Of a DNA stretch of 52,371 nt, positions 41,369-52,186 are shown in pieces. Both the position numbers and the translations under genes were made by a program. The DNA comes from Deltaproteobacteria bacterium (lineage in GTDB: Bacteria; Myxococcota_A; Polyangia; Polyangiales; B10-G4). The notes below the pieces were generated by a model. It was not told the DNA's origin, made no database searches, and saw nothing but the letters and a program-made list of their open reading frames with translations. The stretch covers positions 1 through 52,371 of the forward strand of contig QMMC01000002.1 of the NCBI GenBank assembly GCA_003647065.1. The letters run 5' to 3'. Position 1 is the first letter of the stretch, and each line of letters starts with the position of its first letter.

Positions 41369-42319
41369 TCAGTCCAGGATGGCGACGAGCTCTACGTCGA
41401 AGACCAGCATGCCCGCCGGGGCGCCGGGGCGGCCCTGGTAGGCGAGGTTCTCGGGGATCCAGAAGCGGCGCTGCTCGCCGGCGACCATGAGCTGCAGCCC
41501 CTCGGTCCAACCGGCGATGACCCGGTTGAGGGGGAAGACCGCGGGCTCGCCGCGGGTGCGGGAGCTGTCGAACATGTTCCCGTCCGTCGTCCACCCGGTG
41601 TAATGCACGCGCACCCGGCTCGTCTCGGCGGGGTGGGCGTCACCGGTCCCAGCCTCGATGACCTTGGACGCGAGGCCGCTGTCGGTGCGCTCCGCGTCCG
41701 CGGGGGCAGCCGCGACGTCGGTGGGGGCCGTCGGCGACCGGAGGATGCTCACCAACTCGATGTCGAAGACCAGCATGCCCGCGGGTGCGCCGGGGCGACC
41801 CTGGTAGGCGAGGGCCTCGGGGATCCACGCCCGCACCTTCTCGCCTTCGGCCATCAGCTTGAGCACCTCGGTCCAGCCAGCGATGACCCCGGTCACGCCG
41901 AAGGTGGCCGGCTGACCGCGGGCGATGGAACTGTCGAACATGTTTCCGTCGGTCGTCCAGCCGGTGTAGTGCACGCTCACCCGGTCCGCATCTGCGGGCT
42001 TGTTGTCGCTACTGCCGGGGCGGAGGACCTTGTAGGCGAGGCCTGACTCGGTGCGGGTCGCGTCAGCCGGAGCCTCGGCGACGTCGCTCGGTGCGGGGAT
42101 CGCGTTCGGCGCCGGCGGCCGGGCGCCGGCCTTCGTCGGAGTCCGGGCGGCCGCTGCGTTGTCCGCCGTGGGGGTGTCCCTGGACCCTGTCTCTTCATCG
42201 GAAGAGGCCGCCTCGTCCGTATTCGAGAAATCCGGCTCCTGGGCCCGGTCGCAACCGAGGGCCAGAAGGGAGGAGACGAGGATGAGGGCGGCGCTCCGCG
42301 CCAGCGTTTCGGCGGTCAT
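41369..42319 (-). CDS. lipoprotein with two FKBP-type peptidyl-prolyl isomerase domains
   Basis: 316 aa from ATG 42319. Lipobox LALGC. A Thr/Ala/Pro linker is followed by two similar FKBP domains (~residues 105-195 and 220-315), each with VHYTGWTTDGNMFDSS, VIAGWTE and YQGRPGAPAGMLVFD. The Tyr, Asp and Trp of the active-site pocket are present in both. They should speed prolyl isomerisation of exported proteins in the periplasm. The promoter and first ~11 codons are almost identical to those of the gene upstream (43056), so the N-termini were copied. Convergent with the peptidase gene. Confidence 0.93.
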   Translation of the reverse strand: MTAETLARSAALILVSSLLALGCDRAQEPDFSNTDEAASSDEETGSRDTPTADNAAAARTPTKAGARPPAPNAIPAPSDVAEAPADATRTESGLAYKVLRPGSSDNKPADADRVSVHYTGWTTDGNMFDSSIARGQPATFGVTGVIAGWTEVLKLMAEGEKVRAWIPEALAYQGRPGAPAGMLVFDIELVSILRSPTAPTDVAAAPADAERTDSGLASKVIEAGTGDAHPAETSRVRVHYTGWTTDGNMFDSSRTRGEPAVFPLNRVIAGWTEGLQLMVAGEQRRFWIPENLAYQGRPGAPAGMLVFDVELVAILD

Positions 42320-42366
42320 GGGAGCGGGTCGTAGTCCAATGTGGGGGCCGTTTCAACCGGCTCGCC
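42284..42366. repeat. promoter/signal-peptide duplication, copy 1
   Basis: 83 bp matching 43021-43103 with 4 mismatches. It holds the -35/-10 elements, the ATG and the first ~12 codons of the FKBP lipoprotein gene. The similarity fades gradually into the rest of the signal peptide. Offset between copies is 737 bp, same orientation. Confidence 0.92.
42328..42356 (-). promoter_or_regulatory. promoter of the FKBP lipoprotein gene
   Basis: Minus strand: TTGAAA (42356-42351), exact 17-bp spacer, TACGAC (42333-42328), then 8 nt to the ATG at 42319. Transcription should begin at about the start codon. Confidence 0.6.
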
Positions 42367-42474: not shown

Positions 42475-43056
42475 TCATTCGAGTTCCCGTTCGATGCGAA
42501 TATCGGGGGCGCGCACGACATCGCCCGCGGCGTCGGTACCGACCGTGAGTTCGAAAACGGACGTGATTCCATCATCATCGAGGTCTCCGTGGGCTCGGAA
42601 GGTATAGAGCGCCTCGTTCGGCCCGTGGCCGCAGCTGGCCGGAGGGGCAACGATCTCATACCGGAAATAGACGGGACCGGTGACGGGAAAGCCAATCTCG
42701 CGGAAAGGGGCATCAAGGGCACCTAGCGCCTGAAGCTCGGAGCCGGGCACGTTGGTGGTAATGGCAGGGCCAACTGTGCAGTTGCTCTCGTAGGAGCCGC
42801 CTGCTCGCGAGCGTTCTTGCATGTAATATCCGGTCGCACCCACGAAGAGCATCCCAAGGTTCGAGTGGGCCTCGAGAGTCTTCAAGCGCCGCACGTGGTC
42901 AGCCGGCGAGGCTGCGGCCTCCGAGGTCTCGTGACCCGCAGGCTCCGACGACGGCGGGTCGGAGGCCTCATGCTCATCGGCCCGATCGCAGCCGAGAGCC
43001 GATAGAGAGAAAACGAAGAGGAGGGCGGCGCTCCACGCCAGCGTTTCGGCGGTCAT
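42475..43056 (-). CDS. lipoprotein with a type IV pilin-like C-terminal domain
   Basis: 193 aa. The N-terminus (MTAETLAWSAAL, lipobox SALGCDRAD) is a copy of the FKBP lipoprotein's. After a Ser/Glu/Pro linker the rest is homologous to the C-terminal ~140 residues of the pilin-like protein at 45378: SNLGMLFVGATGYYMQER, NCTVGPAITTNVP, YEIVAPPASCGHGPNEALYTFRAHGDLDDDGI and a final ELE. The pilin N-terminal helix itself is gone. The pilin head is thus lipid-tethered rather than fibre-forming. It may act as a cap, decoy or minor partner of the pilin; all inference. Confidence 0.87.
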   Translation of the reverse strand: MTAETLAWSAALLFVFSLSALGCDRADEHEASDPPSSEPAGHETSEAAASPADHVRRLKTLEAHSNLGMLFVGATGYYMQERSRAGGSYESNCTVGPAITTNVPGSELQALGALDAPFREIGFPVTGPVYFRYEIVAPPASCGHGPNEALYTFRAHGDLDDDGITSVFELTVGTDAAGDVVRAPDIRIERELE

Positions 43057-43103
43057 GGGAGCGGCTCGTAGTCCAATGTGGGTGCAGTTTCAACCGGCTC
43101 GCC
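43021..43103. repeat. promoter/signal-peptide duplication, copy 2
   Basis: Second copy of the 83-bp segment described at 42284. It carries the ATG (43056) and the promoter of the pilin-head lipoprotein gene. Confidence 0.92.
43065..43093 (-). promoter_or_regulatory. promoter of the pilin-head lipoprotein gene
   Basis: Minus strand: TTGAAA (43093-43088), 17-bp spacer, TACGAG (43070-43065), 8 nt to ATG 43056. The -35 is identical to the FKBP gene's and the -10 differs by one base, so the two genes may be co-regulated. Confidence 0.55.
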
Positions 43104-43126: not shown

Positions 43127-44653
43127 CTACCCGCAGAGATTGTCGCGGGGGACGCACTGCTTCGGGATGTAGAACTGGTCCTCGATGTCGGTGAGGCGGG
43201 CGCAGCGCGCGCCCTCGCCGCAGGCGGCGTCGGTGGTGCAGCCGACGCCGCACCTTCCCTCGCCACCGATGCCGAGGCAGAGGTTGCCGCCAGCGCCGCA
43301 GTCGGCGTCCGTGGTGCACGGCTGACAGGCGATGCCTTCGGATGCATGGGGGTTGAGCTGCGGGTCGCCGTCGATGCCGTGCACGCCGTAGTGCACGCTG
43401 CGGAAGGCTTCGGTATTGAGGCCGCGCAGCATGCTCAGCCAGCTGATGGGGTAGTGCCGGCCGGCGTCATCCGTGATGGTCAACCAGGTCACGAACTCGT
43501 GCAGGGTCTGATATCCCACCGAGAACGGGGTGGTGTTCACGGTCGTGACGATGTCGACGTTGTCGAAGGTCTTGTTGGGGTTCGCCATCAAGTCGTCGAC
43601 GTAGCTGCGGTAGGTCTGGCAGCCGTCGAGAACGAAAATCTGATAGCTGTCGCGCATCTCGAGGGTGGCGAAATCACGTGCCGGGATTTCGTGGCGCGGC
43701 TGGTAGTCGAGGATGAAGCCGGCCCCGGGGCCCGCGTGGCCCGAGTAGATCACGACGTCACGGGCCCGGAAGCTCTCACGAATGGCGTCGCTCAGCTTGG
43801 ACTCCTCGTCGGCGGTGACCATGTCCGAGTGGTAGACGTAGACCCGAACCTCGACCTCCCGGCTTTCGACGAAGATCGTCTTGGTGAACGGAGGCGAGTC
43901 GATGGCGAGGGACTCGAAGTCCGACACCGCCTGGTTTTCGAAGCCGCGTTCGTTCAGGAGGTATTCGACGAGCCACTTCGCGGTCTCGAGGTCGAAGCGA
44001 CCTTCGTTGTAGTCGCCGCCGAAGTGAATGCCGATGTCGTAGATGCCATCGGCGAAGAGCTCGTCGTACTTCGGGAAAGCGTCACGGCTCTCGCTGCCCG
44101 CGATCTCGACCTCGACCGTCTCACCGGTGGGCTCGGACCAATCTTGGACGGTCACCGAGAAGGTACGCCGGCTCGCCGTGCCGGGAGCCAGCTGGCTCAT
44201 GAGGTAGTGGCTGCCCACCAGGCCGATTCGAAAGGTGAACCGAGCCTCGGTTCCGACGACTTCGGTCCCCTCGGTCTCGGCGGCGTTCTTCTGGAAGTAG
44301 GTGAACCAGCTGACGTCGTCCCCGGTCTCGCCGCCGTTGGATTCCCCGACGACCGACGTCACGTGAGCCCGAATTGCACGGCTCACGGTGTTGAGGCGTC
44401 CCTGAACGGCCCGGTCGAGGGCTGCGTTCTGCTCATCCTCGGACAGGTCCGCGTAGTCCTCGGGGAGGGCTGCGTGGGCGATGCCGCTGAGTTCGAACTC
44501 CCGGGCGTTGGAGGAGATGTAGTTGTCGGCCTTGCCGTCCTCGGCCGGGATGACTTCGTGGGGGCCCGCTCCCGCTTCGATGGAAGCGTTGGGGCCAGAG
44601 ACCGCGCACCCGGTGAGGGCGAGCAAGAGGGCGTTCATGACGAGGCGAGACAT
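43127..44653 (-). CDS. caspase/gingipain-like cysteine protease lipoprotein (predicted)
   Basis: 508 aa from ATG 44653 (MSRLVMNALLLALTGC), lipobox LTGC. The central part has the clan CD dyad: His in DVVIYSGHAGPG (~residue 305) and Cys in QIFVLDGCQTYRS (~residue 344), spaced as in caspases, gingipains and clostripain-like enzymes. Upstream, SWFTYFQKN...GTEARFTFRIGLVGSHYLMS may be a beta-sandwich prodomain. The C-terminus has a Cys-rich stretch (CQPCTTDADCGAGGNLCLG, CTTDAACGEGARC) like those of other surface proteins here. Substrate unknown; a pilin-like neighbour is a possible target. A TAGGCA -10-like box ends 8 nt before the ATG. Assignment rests on the two motifs. Confidence 0.78.
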   Translation of the reverse strand: MSRLVMNALLLALTGCAVSGPNASIEAGAGPHEVIPAEDGKADNYISSNAREFELSGIAHAALPEDYADLSEDEQNAALDRAVQGRLNTVSRAIRAHVTSVVGESNGGETGDDVSWFTYFQKNAAETEGTEVVGTEARFTFRIGLVGSHYLMSQLAPGTASRRTFSVTVQDWSEPTGETVEVEIAGSESRDAFPKYDELFADGIYDIGIHFGGDYNEGRFDLETAKWLVEYLLNERGFENQAVSDFESLAIDSPPFTKTIFVESREVEVRVYVYHSDMVTADEESKLSDAIRESFRARDVVIYSGHAGPGAGFILDYQPRHEIPARDFATLEMRDSYQIFVLDGCQTYRSYVDDLMANPNKTFDNVDIVTTVNTTPFSVGYQTLHEFVTWLTITDDAGRHYPISWLSMLRGLNTEAFRSVHYGVHGIDGDPQLNPHASEGIACQPCTTDADCGAGGNLCLGIGGEGRCGVGCTTDAACGEGARCARLTDIEDQFYIPKQCVPRDNLCG

Positions 44654-44806
44654 GGTGCGCTTGCCTAACGCAACAGACATGCCAGAAAGCGCCCCCAGAA
44701 AGCGCAGCGATTCCTTAGCCTTGCCGGTGGTGGTGGTGGCCACCGGTCTCGCCGCGGCCGCCGCGCGAGCCGGGGAGCCTTGCCGCTGCGCCCTAAGCCT
44801 TCGGCC

Positions 44807-45322
44807 CTACTCGCAGGCGCCGGGGCCGTCCATCAGCGCCCCGTCCGCCCCGCAGCGGTAACGGCAGATGGTCGAGTCACCCTCGCACCCTACGGAGCAG
44901 CTGCCGAGGCAGGTGACGGTGCACTCGCCGCGGTCGATGCACGAGACGCTCGACCCGGCGCCTACCTCGATGGTGCAGTTCGCCGCGCGGCAGAGGACCA
45001 TCGAGTCATCGCCAGCGTAGAGCACGCAGGTGGTGCCCTCGACGCAGGTGAGGTCGCTGTTGTTGCCGCCGGCGGCGCCGCAGTCGGAGTCTTCCTTGCA
45101 CTCGAAGGCGCAGCTGTCGCCGCACTGGAGCGCGCACTGGGAACTCGTGTCACAGGCGCAGTCGTTCGCGTCGACGCAGGGGCAAGCGTCCCCGGGACAG
45201 GTCGGATAGTCCGGCAAGACGGGGCCCGACTCGCTCGAGCATGCGGCAAGCCCAAAGACCACAAGAGACGCAAGGGCGATGGACAGGCCGAGGGCCGGGG
45301 TGAAAGACGTGACCTTGATCAT
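44807..45322 (-). CDS. small Cys-rich lipoprotein downstream of the pilin-like gene
   Basis: 171 aa. ATG 45322 has AGGA 8 nt upstream. Lipobox LAAC after a hydrophobic run. The mature part is ~14% Cys (CPCVDANDCACDTSSQCALQC, CTVTCLGSCSVGC, CRYRCG) and resembles the end of the lipoprotein at 38196. Its start lies in a duplicated stop/start junction: a 20-codon mini-ORF (ATG 45381, TGA 45319-45321) ends in ATGA at this ATG, and starts in ATGA at the pilin stop. It is therefore probably translated by coupling. Confidence 0.82.
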   Translation of the reverse strand: MIKVTSFTPALGLSIALASLVVFGLAACSSESGPVLPDYPTCPGDACPCVDANDCACDTSSQCALQCGDSCAFECKEDSDCGAAGGNNSDLTCVEGTTCVLYAGDDSMVLCRAANCTIEVGAGSSVSCIDRGECTVTCLGSCSVGCEGDSTICRYRCGADGALMDGPGACE

Positions 45323-45381
45323 TCGAGTTCCTGTTCGATGTAAAGAGCGGGGGCGGGAGTAAGAGACGTACGCTGGATCAT
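45319..45381 (-). CDS. 20-codon mini-ORF in a duplicated stop/start junction
   Basis: Reads MIQRTSLTPAP...EQELE. Its first ten codons mimic the start of the following lipoprotein (MIKVTSFTPA) and its last four repeat the pilin-like protein's ending (QELE). Start and stop overlap the neighbouring stop and start by ATGA. Probably a by-product of a 59-bp tandem duplication, which may still couple translation. The identical core GATCATTCGAGTTCCTGT is at 45317-45334 and 45376-45393. Confidence 0.55.
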   Translation of the reverse strand: MIQRTSLTPAPALYIEQELE

Positions 45382-46001
45382 TCGAGTTCCTGTCCGACGT
45401 AGAAACCCGGGGTACGGAAGACCTCGCCCATTTCGTTGGTGCCGACGGAGAGTTCGAGGAGCGAGGTCACCCCATCGCCGTCGAGGTCACCATGGGCCCG
45501 GAAGCTATAGAGCGCTTCGTTTGGCCCATGGCCACAGCGGGCCGGGCCGGCGACGATTTCGTATTGGAAGAAGACCGGCTCGAAGGGCGCGAAGCCGAGT
45601 TCGCTGAATGCGGCGTCGAGGGGGCCGAGCACCTGTTTCTGGTCGGTCGGTACGTTCGGGGTGACGGCCGGCCCGACCGTGCAATGGGTCTGGGTCGTCC
45701 CGTCCGGACCCATGCGCTCCTGTTCGTAATAGCTCGCCGCGCCGGCGAAGAGCGTCCTGAGGTTCGAGGTCGCCTCGGCGGTATTGGACCGGCGCACGTA
45801 GTTGATGAACGCGGGGATGGCGATGGCAGCCAGCACGCCGGTGCAGGGCACACAGCCGACGACGAGGACCAGCACCAGGATCAGCAGGCCGACCTTCTTC
45901 TTGGGGGCAGGAGACGGAGGAGACGCCGGAGTCGGCGGAGTCGGCGGAGTCGGCGGAGACGCCGGAGTCGGCGGACCGCCGTAGGCTGGAGCACTGGCCA
46001 T
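45378..46001 (-). CDS. type IV pilin-like protein with Pro-rich N-terminal extension
   Basis: 207 aa from ATG 46001. The helix VGLLILVLVLVVGCVPCTGVLAAIAIPAFINYVRRSNTAEA contains the hallmark AAIAIPAFINYVRRS of pilins. It is followed by SNLRTLFAGAASYYEQER and a C-terminal domain with a CTVGP...C pair typical of myxobacterial pilin-like proteins. In place of the short leader with Gly-Phe-x3-Glu there is a ~35-residue Pro-rich stretch (PPTPPTPPTPASPPSP) and PKKK, so the usual prepilin peptidase site is missing. It may stay as a bitopic membrane protein. A 9-bp repeat (GGAGTCGGC) codes the Pro-rich part. Confidence 0.85.
   Translation of the reverse strand: MASAPAYGGPPTPASPPTPPTPPTPASPPSPAPKKKVGLLILVLVLVVGCVPCTGVLAAIAIPAFINYVRRSNTAEATSNLRTLFAGAASYYEQERMGPDGTTQTHCTVGPAVTPNVPTDQKQVLGPLDAAFSELGFAPFEPVFFQYEIVAGPARCGHGPNEALYSFRAHGDLDGDGVTSLLELSVGTNEMGEVFRTPGFYVGQELE
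45905..45975 (-). repeat. 9-bp-type tandem repeat encoding the Pro-rich extension
   Basis: Several copies of GGAGTCGGC, with GGAGACGCC variants, in frame, giving Pro-Thr-Pro and Ala-Ser-Pro units in the pilin-like protein. Copy number changes would alter the linker length. Confidence 0.75.
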
Positions 46002-47921: not shown

Positions 47922-50483
47922 TCAGGGGACCACGGTCGAGCAATCGGCGCTGCAGCGGTCACCGCTGACGTTGTTACCGTCGTCGCAGACCTCGCCGCCG
48001 TCGAGGATGCCGTCCCCGCAGGAAGGCACGGTGCAGTCCGTGCGACACATGGACGGGGTGTTGGCGAAGGTGATTTGCACCTGGGTGCTCATGTCGAGGG
48101 AAGTGAAGATGCTGCCTTCGTTGACCCAACGGAAGTTGGTCATGCCGAAGCGGAAGGTCGGGTCGAGGGTGACCGTGTAGTTGCCCGGGACCGGCACGTC
48201 GCTGACGATGGCACCGTCGGTATTGGCCCGGAACCACCAGTCGCCACGGTATCCCGTGGAACCGACCGGGAAGAACTCCATCGGCGTATCGTCGGCGAGC
48301 GCAACGGACGTGCCCGCCGGAAAGCCAGCGATGTCGAAGACGATCTCGGCGGTGGGCTGGAAGACCCCGGTCGTGTCCTGGTCGATGCCGTGCACGATGA
48401 AGAGACTCATCACGCCGGTATTGAGGTCGCGGTAAAGGAAGATGTTCGAGAGCCCCGCCTCCTCCCAGCCGGTGTGCGCGCTGGCGCTGACGAGCCCATA
48501 GAAGAACGTCGCCGGGGTGAAGCGCTCGACCGGGGCGACAGCGACGCTGACGCCGCCGGCCTGGGTCACGAGGATCGCCGGTCGGTCGTCGTTCGAGGTA
48601 CCGAGGTCACAGACCTCGCCAATGCCCGTCTCGAGGATACCGTTTCCGCAGACGTCGACCTCGACCGCACAGGAAGATGAGCAGCCGTCCCCCGACGTCG
48701 TATTGCCGTCGTCGCAGGCTTCGGAGCACTCCCGGCGCCCGTTGCCGCAGGCCTCGAGCTGGCACATCGCAGAGCATCCGTCGCAGTCCGTGACGCCGCC
48801 GTCATCGCATTGCTCACCCGGGTCCCTGCGGCCGTCACCACAGCGCGGCGGGGGCGGCTCGATGGCGCAGCTCGAGGAACACCCGTCGCCGTTGACCCGG
48901 TTTCCGTCGTCGCACGACTCCAAGCACTCGAGGCGCCCGTTGCCGCATGCCTCACGCAGACAGACCGACGAACACCCGTCGCAGCTGCGGACGTTGCGAT
49001 CGTCGCACTCTTCCCCGGGGTCGAGGCGGCCATCCCCGCACTCGGGCGGCGGGGGCTCGATGGCGCAGGAGGAGGAGCATCCGTCGCCGTTGACGACATT
49101 GCCGTCGTCGCACATTTCCATGCACTCCACCCGGCCGTTGCCGCAGAGCTCGATGAGGCACCGGGTCCCGGAGCAGCCGTCGCAGTCCCGGTTGTTTCCG
49201 TCATCACACTCCTCGCCGGGGTCGGTGAAACCATCACCACACATGGGGATTTCGATGGTGCACATGTCGGAACACCCATCTCGGGGAGTGGTGTTGCCGT
49301 CGTCGCACTGCTCGGCGCATTCGAGCACGGAGTTGCCGCAACCCTCGGTCTGGCAGGTATTGGAGCACCCGTCGCAGCTCGTCGCGTTGCCGTCGTCGCA
49401 GGCCTCGCCGGGGTCCCGGGTCCCATCGCCGCACCGGGGCGTTTCGATGGTGCACATCGGGGAGCACCCGTCTCCGGGGAGGGGGTTGCCGTCGTCGCAC
49501 TCCTCGACGCAGTCGAGGCTGCCGTTGCCGCAGACCTCGGGCATGCACGAGGGTGAGCACCCATCACAGGGCAGGCGATTTCCGTCGTCGCAGCGCTCAC
49601 CGCGGTCCAAGACGCCGTTGCCACAGACGCGGCTCTCGAACTGGCAGCGGTCGGAACAACCGTCGCCGGAGGTGGTGTTGCCGTCGTCGCAGGCCTCCGC
49701 GCAATCGAGGGCGCCGTTGCCGCAGATTTCGATGGTGCAGAATGGCGAGCACCCGTCGCAGGAAACGGCGCCGCCGTCGTCGCACTCTTCACCGGGTTCG
49801 CGGATTCCGTCCCCGCAGCGCCCCGCTTCGACCTCACACGTAGCCGAGCAACCATCGCCGGGGCGATTGTTGCCGTCGTCGCATTCTTCGCCACACTCGT
49901 GGAGGCCGTTGCCGCAGGCCTCGACGGTGCACATCGGAGAGCACCCGTCGCATTCGACGCGGCCGCCGTCGTCGCATCCTTCGCCGGGGTCGAGCCGGCC
50001 GTTGCCGCAGGAGGCGAGCTCTACCTGGCAGCGGGCAGAACACCCGTCGCCGGGGCGTGTATTGCCGTCGTCACATTCTTCACGGCATTCGATCACGCGG
50101 TTCCCGCAGGCCTCCCGGGTGCAGCGCTCCGAGCAACCGTCACAAGAGTTGGCGTTGCCGTCGTCACACTCTTCGCCGAGCTGGATGACCCCGTCGCCGC
50201 AGCCCATGGTGACCACCTCGGCCCGGCAGGTGCTGGAGCACCCATCCCCGTCGATGAGGTTGCCATCGTCGCACTCCTCGCCAACGTCGATGACGCGATT
50301 GCCGCACCGCGGCATGGATGAATCGACCCTGCTGTCGACACCGCTATCCATGCGGCGAGTGATGCCGGTGTCCGTGGACCCGTCGACTCCACCATCGGCA
50401 CCAGGAGTCAGCCGGAGGGTGCTGCGACCGCAGCCAGCCACCAAGAGGAAGGAGGAAATTGCGAGGAGTACGACCGGGCGCAT
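47922..50483 (-). CDS. DUF4215 repeat lipoprotein
   Basis: 853 aa from ATG 50483 (MRPVVLLAISS); an ATG at 50495 is the alternative. Lipobox VAGC. After an Asp/Thr/Ser linker come 17 full DUF4215-type repeats of ~31-35 aa (CGNGxxExxEECDDGNxxxGDGCSxxC). A ~170-residue non-repeat domain follows (TPATFFYGLVSASAHTGWEE ... TFRFGMTNFRWVNEG), then one final repeat. The repeats strictly alternate between two Cys arrangements (see findings). Such proteins are common in myxobacteria and are thought to be surface adhesins or substrate binders. TATGCT ends 7 nt before the ATG. Confidence 0.92.
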   Translation of the reverse strand: MRPVVLLAISSFLLVAGCGRSTLRLTPGADGGVDGSTDTGITRRMDSGVDSRVDSSMPRCGNRVIDVGEECDDGNLIDGDGCSSTCRAEVVTMGCGDGVIQLGEECDDGNANSCDGCSERCTREACGNRVIECREECDDGNTRPGDGCSARCQVELASCGNGRLDPGEGCDDGGRVECDGCSPMCTVEACGNGLHECGEECDDGNNRPGDGCSATCEVEAGRCGDGIREPGEECDDGGAVSCDGCSPFCTIEICGNGALDCAEACDDGNTTSGDGCSDRCQFESRVCGNGVLDRGERCDDGNRLPCDGCSPSCMPEVCGNGSLDCVEECDDGNPLPGDGCSPMCTIETPRCGDGTRDPGEACDDGNATSCDGCSNTCQTEGCGNSVLECAEQCDDGNTTPRDGCSDMCTIEIPMCGDGFTDPGEECDDGNNRDCDGCSGTRCLIELCGNGRVECMEMCDDGNVVNGDGCSSSCAIEPPPPECGDGRLDPGEECDDRNVRSCDGCSSVCLREACGNGRLECLESCDDGNRVNGDGCSSSCAIEPPPPRCGDGRRDPGEQCDDGGVTDCDGCSAMCQLEACGNGRRECSEACDDGNTTSGDGCSSSCAVEVDVCGNGILETGIGEVCDLGTSNDDRPAILVTQAGGVSVAVAPVERFTPATFFYGLVSASAHTGWEEAGLSNIFLYRDLNTGVMSLFIVHGIDQDTTGVFQPTAEIVFDIAGFPAGTSVALADDTPMEFFPVGSTGYRGDWWFRANTDGAIVSDVPVPGNYTVTLDPTFRFGMTNFRWVNEGSIFTSLDMSTQVQITFANTPSMCRTDCTVPSCGDGILDGGEVCDDGNNVSGDRCSADCSTVVP

Positions 50484-50540
50484 GAGGTTCAGCATAGCGG
50501 ATAGAACGAGGCGGGGCGTCTTAGTGGCGATCCAGACGTA

Positions 50541-50569
50541 GTGAAACGAGGGGCTTTTCGGGGTACACT
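50541..50569 (+). promoter_or_regulatory. probable promoter of the amidohydrolase gene
   Basis: GTGAAA (50541-50546), 17-bp spacer, TACACT (50564-50569), 15 nt to ATG 50585. No Shine-Dalgarno. The TTG at 50579 is in frame but would not give a better signal peptide. Confidence 0.45.
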
Positions 50570-50584
50570 TCCCCTGCTTTGCAT

Positions 50585-52186
50585 ATGTCGCTATTGGTCT
50601 CCCTCTTTTCCGTAGCCCTCGTTTTTGCGGGGTGCTCATCCCCACGGACGAGCCCAACCCCCGACAGCGGGGTGCCCGTGGACGGCGGAGGTGACGCCGG
50701 AGACAGCGGTACGCCGACCGACGGAGGCATGGATTCCACGACCCCGCCCGGGGACAGCGGCTCCATGACCGGCGACGGAGGCATCGTGCAGCTCGGCGAG
50801 GGCCTCGTGCTCCGGGGCGTCGTCCTGACCCCCTCGGGCCCCCTCGACCCGGGCGAGGTCTACGTCGTCGACAATACGATCCGCTGCGTCGCCGCCGACT
50901 GCTCGGGCGAGACCGGCGCCGCCGACGCCACCATCATCGAGACCGGCGGGGTGATCTCCCCGGGCCTCATCGACGGCCACAACCACCTGCCCTACAACTT
51001 CCTCGACGAGTGGGTCCCGGACCCGCTGACCCTCTACGACAATCGCTACCTATGGTCCGACGTGCCCTCCTACGAGGCCCACGTCGAGCCCTACAGCGCC
51101 CACCGCTCGACGGGCACGCACTACTGCCCCGCCGCCAAGTGGGGCGAGCTCCGCGCTCTGGTCCACGGGACCACGACCATCCAGGGCCAGTCGTTCCAGC
51201 AGAGCTGCGTCAACCGCCTGGTGCGCAACGCCGACCACTTCCATGGCCTCGGCCACGACCACATGCGCACCAGCATCGCGTCCCCGCGGGACATCACGGA
51301 TTCTCAGGCGACGAGCTTCGTCGCCAGCTTCACCGACCCCGACGAGCCCGTCACCCGCCTCGCCGTGCACATGGGTGAGGGCGTCATGGGCTCGAACCTC
51401 GAACTCGAGTTCGGCTCCTTCGCCGGCCGCGATACGCGCACCAACCGCCACGCCGGCACGTCGCTGCTCGAGGCCATGGACGGCAGCTACCGCGGCACGG
51501 GCATGCTCATCCACGCCGTCGCCCTCAACGACACCGAGCTCATCGAGGTCGCCGACACCGACTCCAAGATCGTGTGGTCCCCCTCGAGCAACATGGTGCT
51601 CTACGGCCAGACCGCCGACATCGGGCGCATCCTCGAGCTCGGCATCACCGTCGGCCTCGGCCCCGACTGGACCGTCTCCGGCGAGGACGAAATGCTCAGC
51701 GAGATGCGCTTCGCCTTGGACTGGGCCCGAGCCGAAGGCGTCGCCGCAGTGACCCCCGAGGCCCTGGTGCGCATGGCCACGGGAGACGGCGCCGAGGTCG
51801 TCGGGCTGCCGACCATCGGCACCCTCGAAGTGGGGCAGGTCGCCGACATCACCGTCTTTGCGCGCATCGGCGCCGACCCGTATCTCGCCGTCGTCGAGAG
51901 CCGCGCCCAAGACGTCGCCTTGGTGCTCATCGACGGCCAGGCTTATTACGGCGACCTCGCCTACGAGATGGCGACCTCGGTCAACGGCGAGTGCGACATG
52001 ATCGACGCCTGCGGCACGGCCAAGTTCGTGTGCGTGAAGAACACCCCCGGCGCCGACAGCCGCGCCGACGAGAGCCTCGAAGACATCCGCGTCCAGCTGG
52101 TGAACATCCTCGAAGGCACCGGGTATCCCGCCGACGAGCAGTACGGCCGGGGCGACGAGCTCCTCGAGCTGATCAGCTGCGACTGA
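50585..52186 (+). CDS. amidohydrolase-family lipoprotein
   Basis: 533 aa from ATG 50585. Lipobox VFAGC, then an Asp/Gly/Thr/Pro linker of ~50 residues. Metal-dependent hydrolase motifs follow: VISPGLIDGHNHLP (His132 and His134 as ligands), VHGTTTIQG, LAVHMGEG, MLIHAVALN, GPDWT (Asp ligand) and the C-terminal GTLEVGQVADITVF. This is the imidazolonepropionase/cytosine deaminase-like branch, which hydrolyses C-N bonds of ring amides or purine-like substrates; the substrate cannot be told. Extra Cys at the end (CDMIDACGTAKFVC) are unusual for the family. Export of such an enzyme fits a nutrient-scavenging lifestyle. Confidence 0.9.
   Translation: MSLLVSLFSVALVFAGCSSPRTSPTPDSGVPVDGGGDAGDSGTPTDGGMDSTTPPGDSGSMTGDGGIVQLGEGLVLRGVVLTPSGPLDPGEVYVVDNTIRCVAADCSGETGAADATIIETGGVISPGLIDGHNHLPYNFLDEWVPDPLTLYDNRYLWSDVPSYEAHVEPYSAHRSTGTHYCPAAKWGELRALVHGTTTIQGQSFQQSCVNRLVRNADHFHGLGHDHMRTSIASPRDITDSQATSFVASFTDPDEPVTRLAVHMGEGVMGSNLELEFGSFAGRDTRTNRHAGTSLLEAMDGSYRGTGMLIHAVALNDTELIEVADTDSKIVWSPSSNMVLYGQTADIGRILELGITVGLGPDWTVSGEDEMLSEMRFALDWARAEGVAAVTPEALVRMATGDGAEVVGLPTIGTLEVGQVADITVFARIGADPYLAVVESRAQDVALVLIDGQAYYGDLAYEMATSVNGECDMIDACGTAKFVCVKNTPGADSRADESLEDIRVQLVNILEGTGYPADEQYGRGDELLELISCD

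Follow-up and report, generated by a model that had tools for sequence, protein, structure and literature searches.

The 193-residue protein P0001 is encoded by a true chimeric gene, in which the 5' end of an FKBP lipoprotein gene has been joined to a type IV pilin head. Its product would be exported and lipidated, and we consider it somewhat more probably than otherwise to be a membrane-tethered binding module that acts outside the pilus. The window analysed is a complete contig of 52,371 bp from a myxobacterial metagenome-assembled genome (86% complete, 594 contigs), and the features discussed here are collected in Table 1.

Table 1. Features of the chimeric gene, its putative sources and its neighbours in the window
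Feature	Position	Strand	Evidence or remark
Chimeric lipoprotein-pilin-head gene (P0001)	42475..43056	-	Intact ORF, 193 aa
P0001 signal peptide, residues 1-22 (MTAETLAWSAALLFVFSLSALG), lipobox A-L-G-C	42991..43056	-	Lipobox pattern and Cys position pass
P0001 Cys23, predicted lipidated Cys+1; Asp at +2, Arg at +3	42988..42990	-	Sequence, lipobox screen
P0001 acidic flexible linker, residues 24-52	42901..42987	-	Model: low-confidence coil to about residue 50
P0001 pilin head, residues 53-193, alpha-1C helix and beta-sheet domain	42478..42900	-	Profile match, E 1.9e-57
5' block in common with the FKBP gene	42972..43103	-	47 bp upstream of the start (44/47 identical) and 85 bp coding (~28 codons)
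Donor copy of the 5' block, FKBP lipoprotein gene start	42235..42366	-	DNA match to 43103..42972
Double-FKBP-domain lipoprotein, leader donor	41369..42319	-	316 aa; FKBP_C E 2.8e-44, two stretches
Remnant of a further pilin-head 3' terminus, immediately 3' of the pilin-like gene	45319..45355	-	DNA match, 37 bp
Non-prepilin pilin-like protein	45378..46001	-	207 aa; N-terminal helix weakly matches Myxococcus PilA profile, E 2.2e-8

A sequence-only reading of the same DNA had proposed that an FKBP-type leader was joined to the head of a nearby pilin-like protein, and homology at the DNA level now bears this out for both parts. The stretch 43103..42972 aligned over 132 bp, at 87% identity (E 1e-41), with 42366..42235 at the beginning of the FKBP lipoprotein gene, and the alignment of the head with the pilin-like gene spanned 425 bp, with 68% identity (E 1e-40). 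At the protein level, residues 53-193 of P0001 and the pilin-like protein, whose gene lies 3 kb away, were 58% identical (E 5.5e-51). Judged from these alignments, chance is ruled out for both the leader block and the head. Within the 5' block, identity was 94% over the upstream 47 bp and 75% at the third codon positions of the coding part, while in the head the second codon positions were 80% and the third positions 52% identical to those of the pilin-like gene. From these values, the simplest history would be an old duplication of the head and its later joining to the FKBP 5' end; regulatory conservation instead of recent joining is an alternative explanation for the high identity of the upstream block. 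Since the copied block reaches into the sequence ahead of the FKBP gene, expression signals were probably taken along with the leader. No sigma-70-like promoter was found in this common upstream block. The 37-bp remnant behind the pilin-like gene matched the chimera at 32 of 37 positions and the tail of the pilin-like gene at 29 of 37, a small difference, and is possibly the scar of a second head copy that has since been lost.

As double-FKBP proteins were matched in 32 of 38 genomes (48-68% identity), most of them with a lipobox, the leader is ancestrally that of the FKBP gene. An NCBIfam match of the FKBP protein to BamJ was read as FKBP similarity, since BamJ was met only for Bacteroidota in the literature searched. 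P0001 itself gave no Pfam or NCBIfam match; it has no FKBP domain and is thus not an FKBP lipoprotein. When heads were screened for a lipobox with its Cys at position 15-35 after a hydrophobic stretch, P0001 passed and none of 215 prepilin heads (0/215) did so. A lipid anchor on Cys23 is thereby likely, as the sequence-only reading had suggested in calling the protein a lipid-anchored pilin head. The n-region, MTAETLAW, is not that of a typical SPII lipoprotein, for it contains neither Lys nor Arg (none in the first seven residues); the only positive charge of the donor leader, R8, has become W8 in P0001 through a C-to-T change. Export or lipidation of P0001 may thus be poor. In E. coli, Asp at +2 retains a lipoprotein at the inner membrane, and by this rule Asp+2 would keep P0001 there. 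In Myxococcus xanthus, Lys+2 directs lipoproteins to the inner membrane and Ala+7 to the matrix (PMC3222651); with Asp+2 and His+7, P0001 carries neither signal. Export, lipidation and location of P0001 are inferred.

The head belongs to a family of 252 distinct relatives read out of genomes across the phylum. Since 215 of them bear a class III prepilin signal, it is a type IV pilin head, and its pilin ancestry stands against the possibility, raised by the sequence-only reading, that it is a domain widespread outside pilins; at least 3 of the other 37 are merely cut by a contig or locus end. In the structure model of P0001 (pLDDT mostly 94-98), alpha-1C (residues 51-79) was predicted as a helix at high confidence and was followed by a beta-rich domain. 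The earlier claim that the pilin polymerisation helix was lost therefore needs correcting: the hydrophobic assembly half, alpha-1N, is gone together with the prepilin cleavage site, but the C-terminal half of alpha-1 is kept. Neither Glu5 nor Gly(-1) is present, and a class III motif looked for in the sequence upstream of the head was absent. By head homology and alpha-1C, P0001 thus has the marks of a type IV pilin, and by its signal it does not; with no pilin stick at its N-terminus, it is not a modular pilin with a grafted domain either.

Conservation of the head was assessed at 48 positions, each at least 70% conserved among 68 class III heads. P0001 keeps 37 of them, including both Cys and the DLDxD motif, compared with 39 for the pilin-like protein of the window and an average of 42.5 among class III members; family-conserved residues altered in P0001 include K to L and DP to GP. 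The dN/dS between the heads of P0001 and the pilin-like protein was 0.28/1.12 = 0.25 (NG86), a ratio that includes time before the fusion. The head of P0001 is folded and was under purifying selection, over a period that likewise spans time before the fusion. Profile A2 matched Myxococcus xanthus PilA (PDB 8tj2) over alpha-1C only (E 5e-5). No entry was matched when Pfam and NCBIfam were searched with the head, and a PDB sequence search with a single head as query gave no match. Foldseek comparison of two models with the PDB gave no confident pilin match; the best match of the P0001 model was C. difficile PilW, at a probability of 0.35, which is not confident.

On the minus strand, P0001 is the fourth gene of a run: the pilin-like gene at 46001..45378, then genes for a Cys-rich lipoprotein at 45322..44807 and for a 538-aa protein at 44743..43127, P0001 itself, and the double-FKBP lipoprotein gene at 42319..41369, with intergenic gaps of 55 to 155 bp. 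The 538-aa product (43127-44743) is lipoprotein-like, has a C-terminal Cys-rich repeat and no Pfam match, and its motifs SGHAG and VLDGCQTY resemble the His-Gly and Cys pair of clan CD (caspase/gingipain-like) peptidases. Elsewhere on this strand, 47922-50657 encodes a 911-aa secreted protein with 17 Cys-rich DUF4215 repeats. The pilin-like gene likely starts at ATG 46001, giving 207 aa, rather than at an upstream GTG. Its product consists of a Pro-rich tail that ends in Lys (36 residues, with KKK), a hydrophobic segment with VPCTG and then the pilin head; having neither Gly(-1) nor Glu5, the protein is, on its sequence, not a prepilin. Several proteins without a prepilin site, namely this one and L005, L006/L007, L045, L118 and L151, have in common a [VI]PCxG motif that lies within the membrane segment, directly ahead of the pilin helix. 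Lipobox readings of the window protein (VVGC, about 50 residues in) and of L151 (AAAC) were both rejected as parts of this conserved membrane motif. L004 comprises two tandem non-prepilin copies in which the motif is absent. In the tree, P0001, the pilin-like protein, L004 and L005 clustered together (SH-aLRT 92), and P0001 and the pilin-like protein formed one side of a weakly supported branch (88/34). The sequence-only reading had also proposed a check for co-occurrence of the lipoprotein form with the Pro-rich pilin-like gene: among the heads read from other genomes with [VI]PCxG-type heads or L004, no lipoprotein form was seen. Gene order near the non-prepilin heads L033-L035 and L045 had no neighbourhood in common with the window.

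Lipobox leaders were found on pilin heads in other Myxococcota, as the same reading had suggested searching for. Besides P0001, the screen of the 252 heads gave clear matches to L212 (248 aa), L215 (253 aa) and L216 (673 aa), which are lipoproteins of family f49, from another myxobacterial class, with a C-terminal pilin head and a short alpha-1N remnant. The starts of L212 and L215 were confirmed by a rise of third-position GC from about 0.5 to 0.95 at their start codons, and the L215 model contains a helical hairpin, a 43-residue alpha-1 and a beta domain. Forcing the four lipoproteins into one clade lowered the log-likelihood by 83 (p-AU 3.9e-7), so lipoprotein-anchored heads have at least two independent origins. 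In G404 and G364, the gene of the lipid-anchored head overlaps the stop of a secreted-protein gene by 4 bp, and in L211 and L216 the head is fused to relatives of that secreted protein (E 4e-71 to 4e-21). The overlap and the fusions tie pilin heads genetically to the secreted protein, a functional link with a non-pilus protein that shows their use in a non-pilus context; this link derives from the f49 lineage and not from the P0001 locus. The secreted protein itself (L211, L216, L212 and L215) has about 450 aa and represents an unstudied family. In L209, L210, L213, L214 and L218 another domain precedes the head (weakly DUF3352-like in L213), and these proteins are membrane-anchored where the N-terminus is visible; about 30 further heads stand on other non-prepilin N-termini. 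Use of pilin heads on non-filament anchors is thus a repeated occurrence. In L060 and L061, alpha-1 and the beta domain of the head are separated by a long insertion rich in Gly and Asn (GGGGNGNGN...).

We propose that an older duplicate of the pilin-head region came to stand behind the 5' end of the neighbouring FKBP lipoprotein gene, with its upstream region, leader and lipobox. P0001 would then be exported by Sec and lipidated at Cys23, and the acidic linker would hold the folded head so that it faces the periplasm or the cell surface. There it would most likely act outside the filament as a tethered binding module, a role that re-anchored heads elsewhere in the phylum seem to share, although the binding role is our guess. 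Pili are probably present in the organism, as its genome encodes PilB, PilT, GspE-like and TadA-type ATPases. The main assembly interface of pilins is alpha-1N. Lipoprotein (class II) and class III signals have separate processing enzymes, which work on opposite faces of the membrane (PMC4471445); with this separation, and with alpha-1N and the prepilin site missing, P0001 cannot be a normal filament subunit.

That the tethered head instead binds PilA or the pilin-like neighbour, and so acts on the pilin pool by capping, competition or sensing, is unlikely in our judgement. The retained fold and most of the conserved head positions would suit such a regulator, as would PilB and PilT in the genome and a pilin-like paralogue close by on the same strand. 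However, that paralogue is no prepilin, the 86%-complete assembly yielded no canonical PilA bearing this head, and the P0001 locus is not a pilus locus; moreover, the lipoprotein was not seen in other genomes with the pilin-like type, and the main assembly contact is missing. A similarly low probability is given to a decaying or non-functional fusion, i.e. a product of recent recombination surviving by chance. P0001 is known from one metagenome-assembled genome only, R8W strips the leader of its sole n-region charge, and several family-conserved head residues are changed (K to L, DP to GP), all of which speak for this reading, but the ORF is intact, the dN/dS of about 0.25 (pre-fusion time included) is low, both Cys and DLDxD are retained, and a like architecture is maintained in another lineage.

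A head that still becomes part of the filament, by pairing with a separately encoded short alpha-1N pilin, has a precedent in Geobacter, where PilA-N (61 aa) and PilA-C (104 aa) make up PilA as a heterodimer (PMC11046646, PMC10191384). We regard this as very improbable for P0001, since the Geobacter pair is adjacent and no short alpha-1N gene adjoins P0001, no short class III ORF was found in the window or among the only four class III (N_methyl) ORFs detected in the 86%-complete assembly (frames of 234-507 aa, of minor pilin or pseudopilin type), and a lipid anchor would hold the head back. Least credible of all is a false joining of two genes, for which a metagenome assembly in 594 contigs might give occasion: neither half is still identical to its source (87% and 68% identity after divergence), leaving no identical repeat to cause such a join, and the ORF is unbroken across the junction. 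The membrane-tethered binding module remains our preferred reading.

For Myxococcota as a whole, we tentatively suggest, with less confidence than for P0001 itself, a recurrent and undescribed class of envelope proteins in which pilin heads have been cut from the polymerisation helix and re-anchored by lipid, a single TM segment or fused secreted domains. They may work outside filaments, perhaps as pilus-matrix receptors or as assembly regulators, and P0001 would be the most extreme member, with alpha-1N wholly replaced. Should these proteins prove functional, the pilin head is a portable binding module, and some of what is labelled "pilin" in myxobacterial genomes is unrelated to filaments. 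Proteins of the P0001 type also offer a simple test of how the head acts when polymerisation is impossible.

Described variations of pilins comprise the stick/head split of Geobacter and the addition of domains onto the pilin stick (PMC10191384). No description of pilin heads moved onto lipoprotein leaders was found in the open-access literature searched, which agrees with the earlier statement that the arrangement was not known from described pilus systems, but it is not unique to P0001, as it recurs in L212, L215 and L216. Independent re-anchoring of pilin heads, more than once, by lineages of the phylum thus seems to be undescribed so far. Compared with the type IVa major pilins of Myxococcota (PilA; NCBIfam NF041775, PDB 8tj2), P0001 has the same alpha-1C, beta-rich globular domain and paired Cys, and carries a lipoprotein leader in place of the class III signal, Glu5 and alpha-1N. 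It has the upstream region, signal peptide, lipobox and linker start in common with the double-FKBP lipoprotein of its locus, but the FKBP domain is absent. L212 and L215 likewise combine a lipobox leader with a C-terminal pilin head ending in ELE; they differ in their independent origin, their overlap with a secreted-protein gene, and a TPR-like hairpin and alpha-1N remnant (AAVAIPAF) between lipobox and head. Like Geobacter PilA-C, P0001 is a head made without the stick helix, but it is a single chimeric gene product with lipobox and linker, for which a partner short pilin was not found. With modular minor pilins (PMC10191384) it has in common a cut-and-paste evolution of pilin modules, but P0001 goes the opposite way, with a foreign anchor receiving the pilin head, so the usual account of pilin evolution is turned around and the head is reused without the stick.
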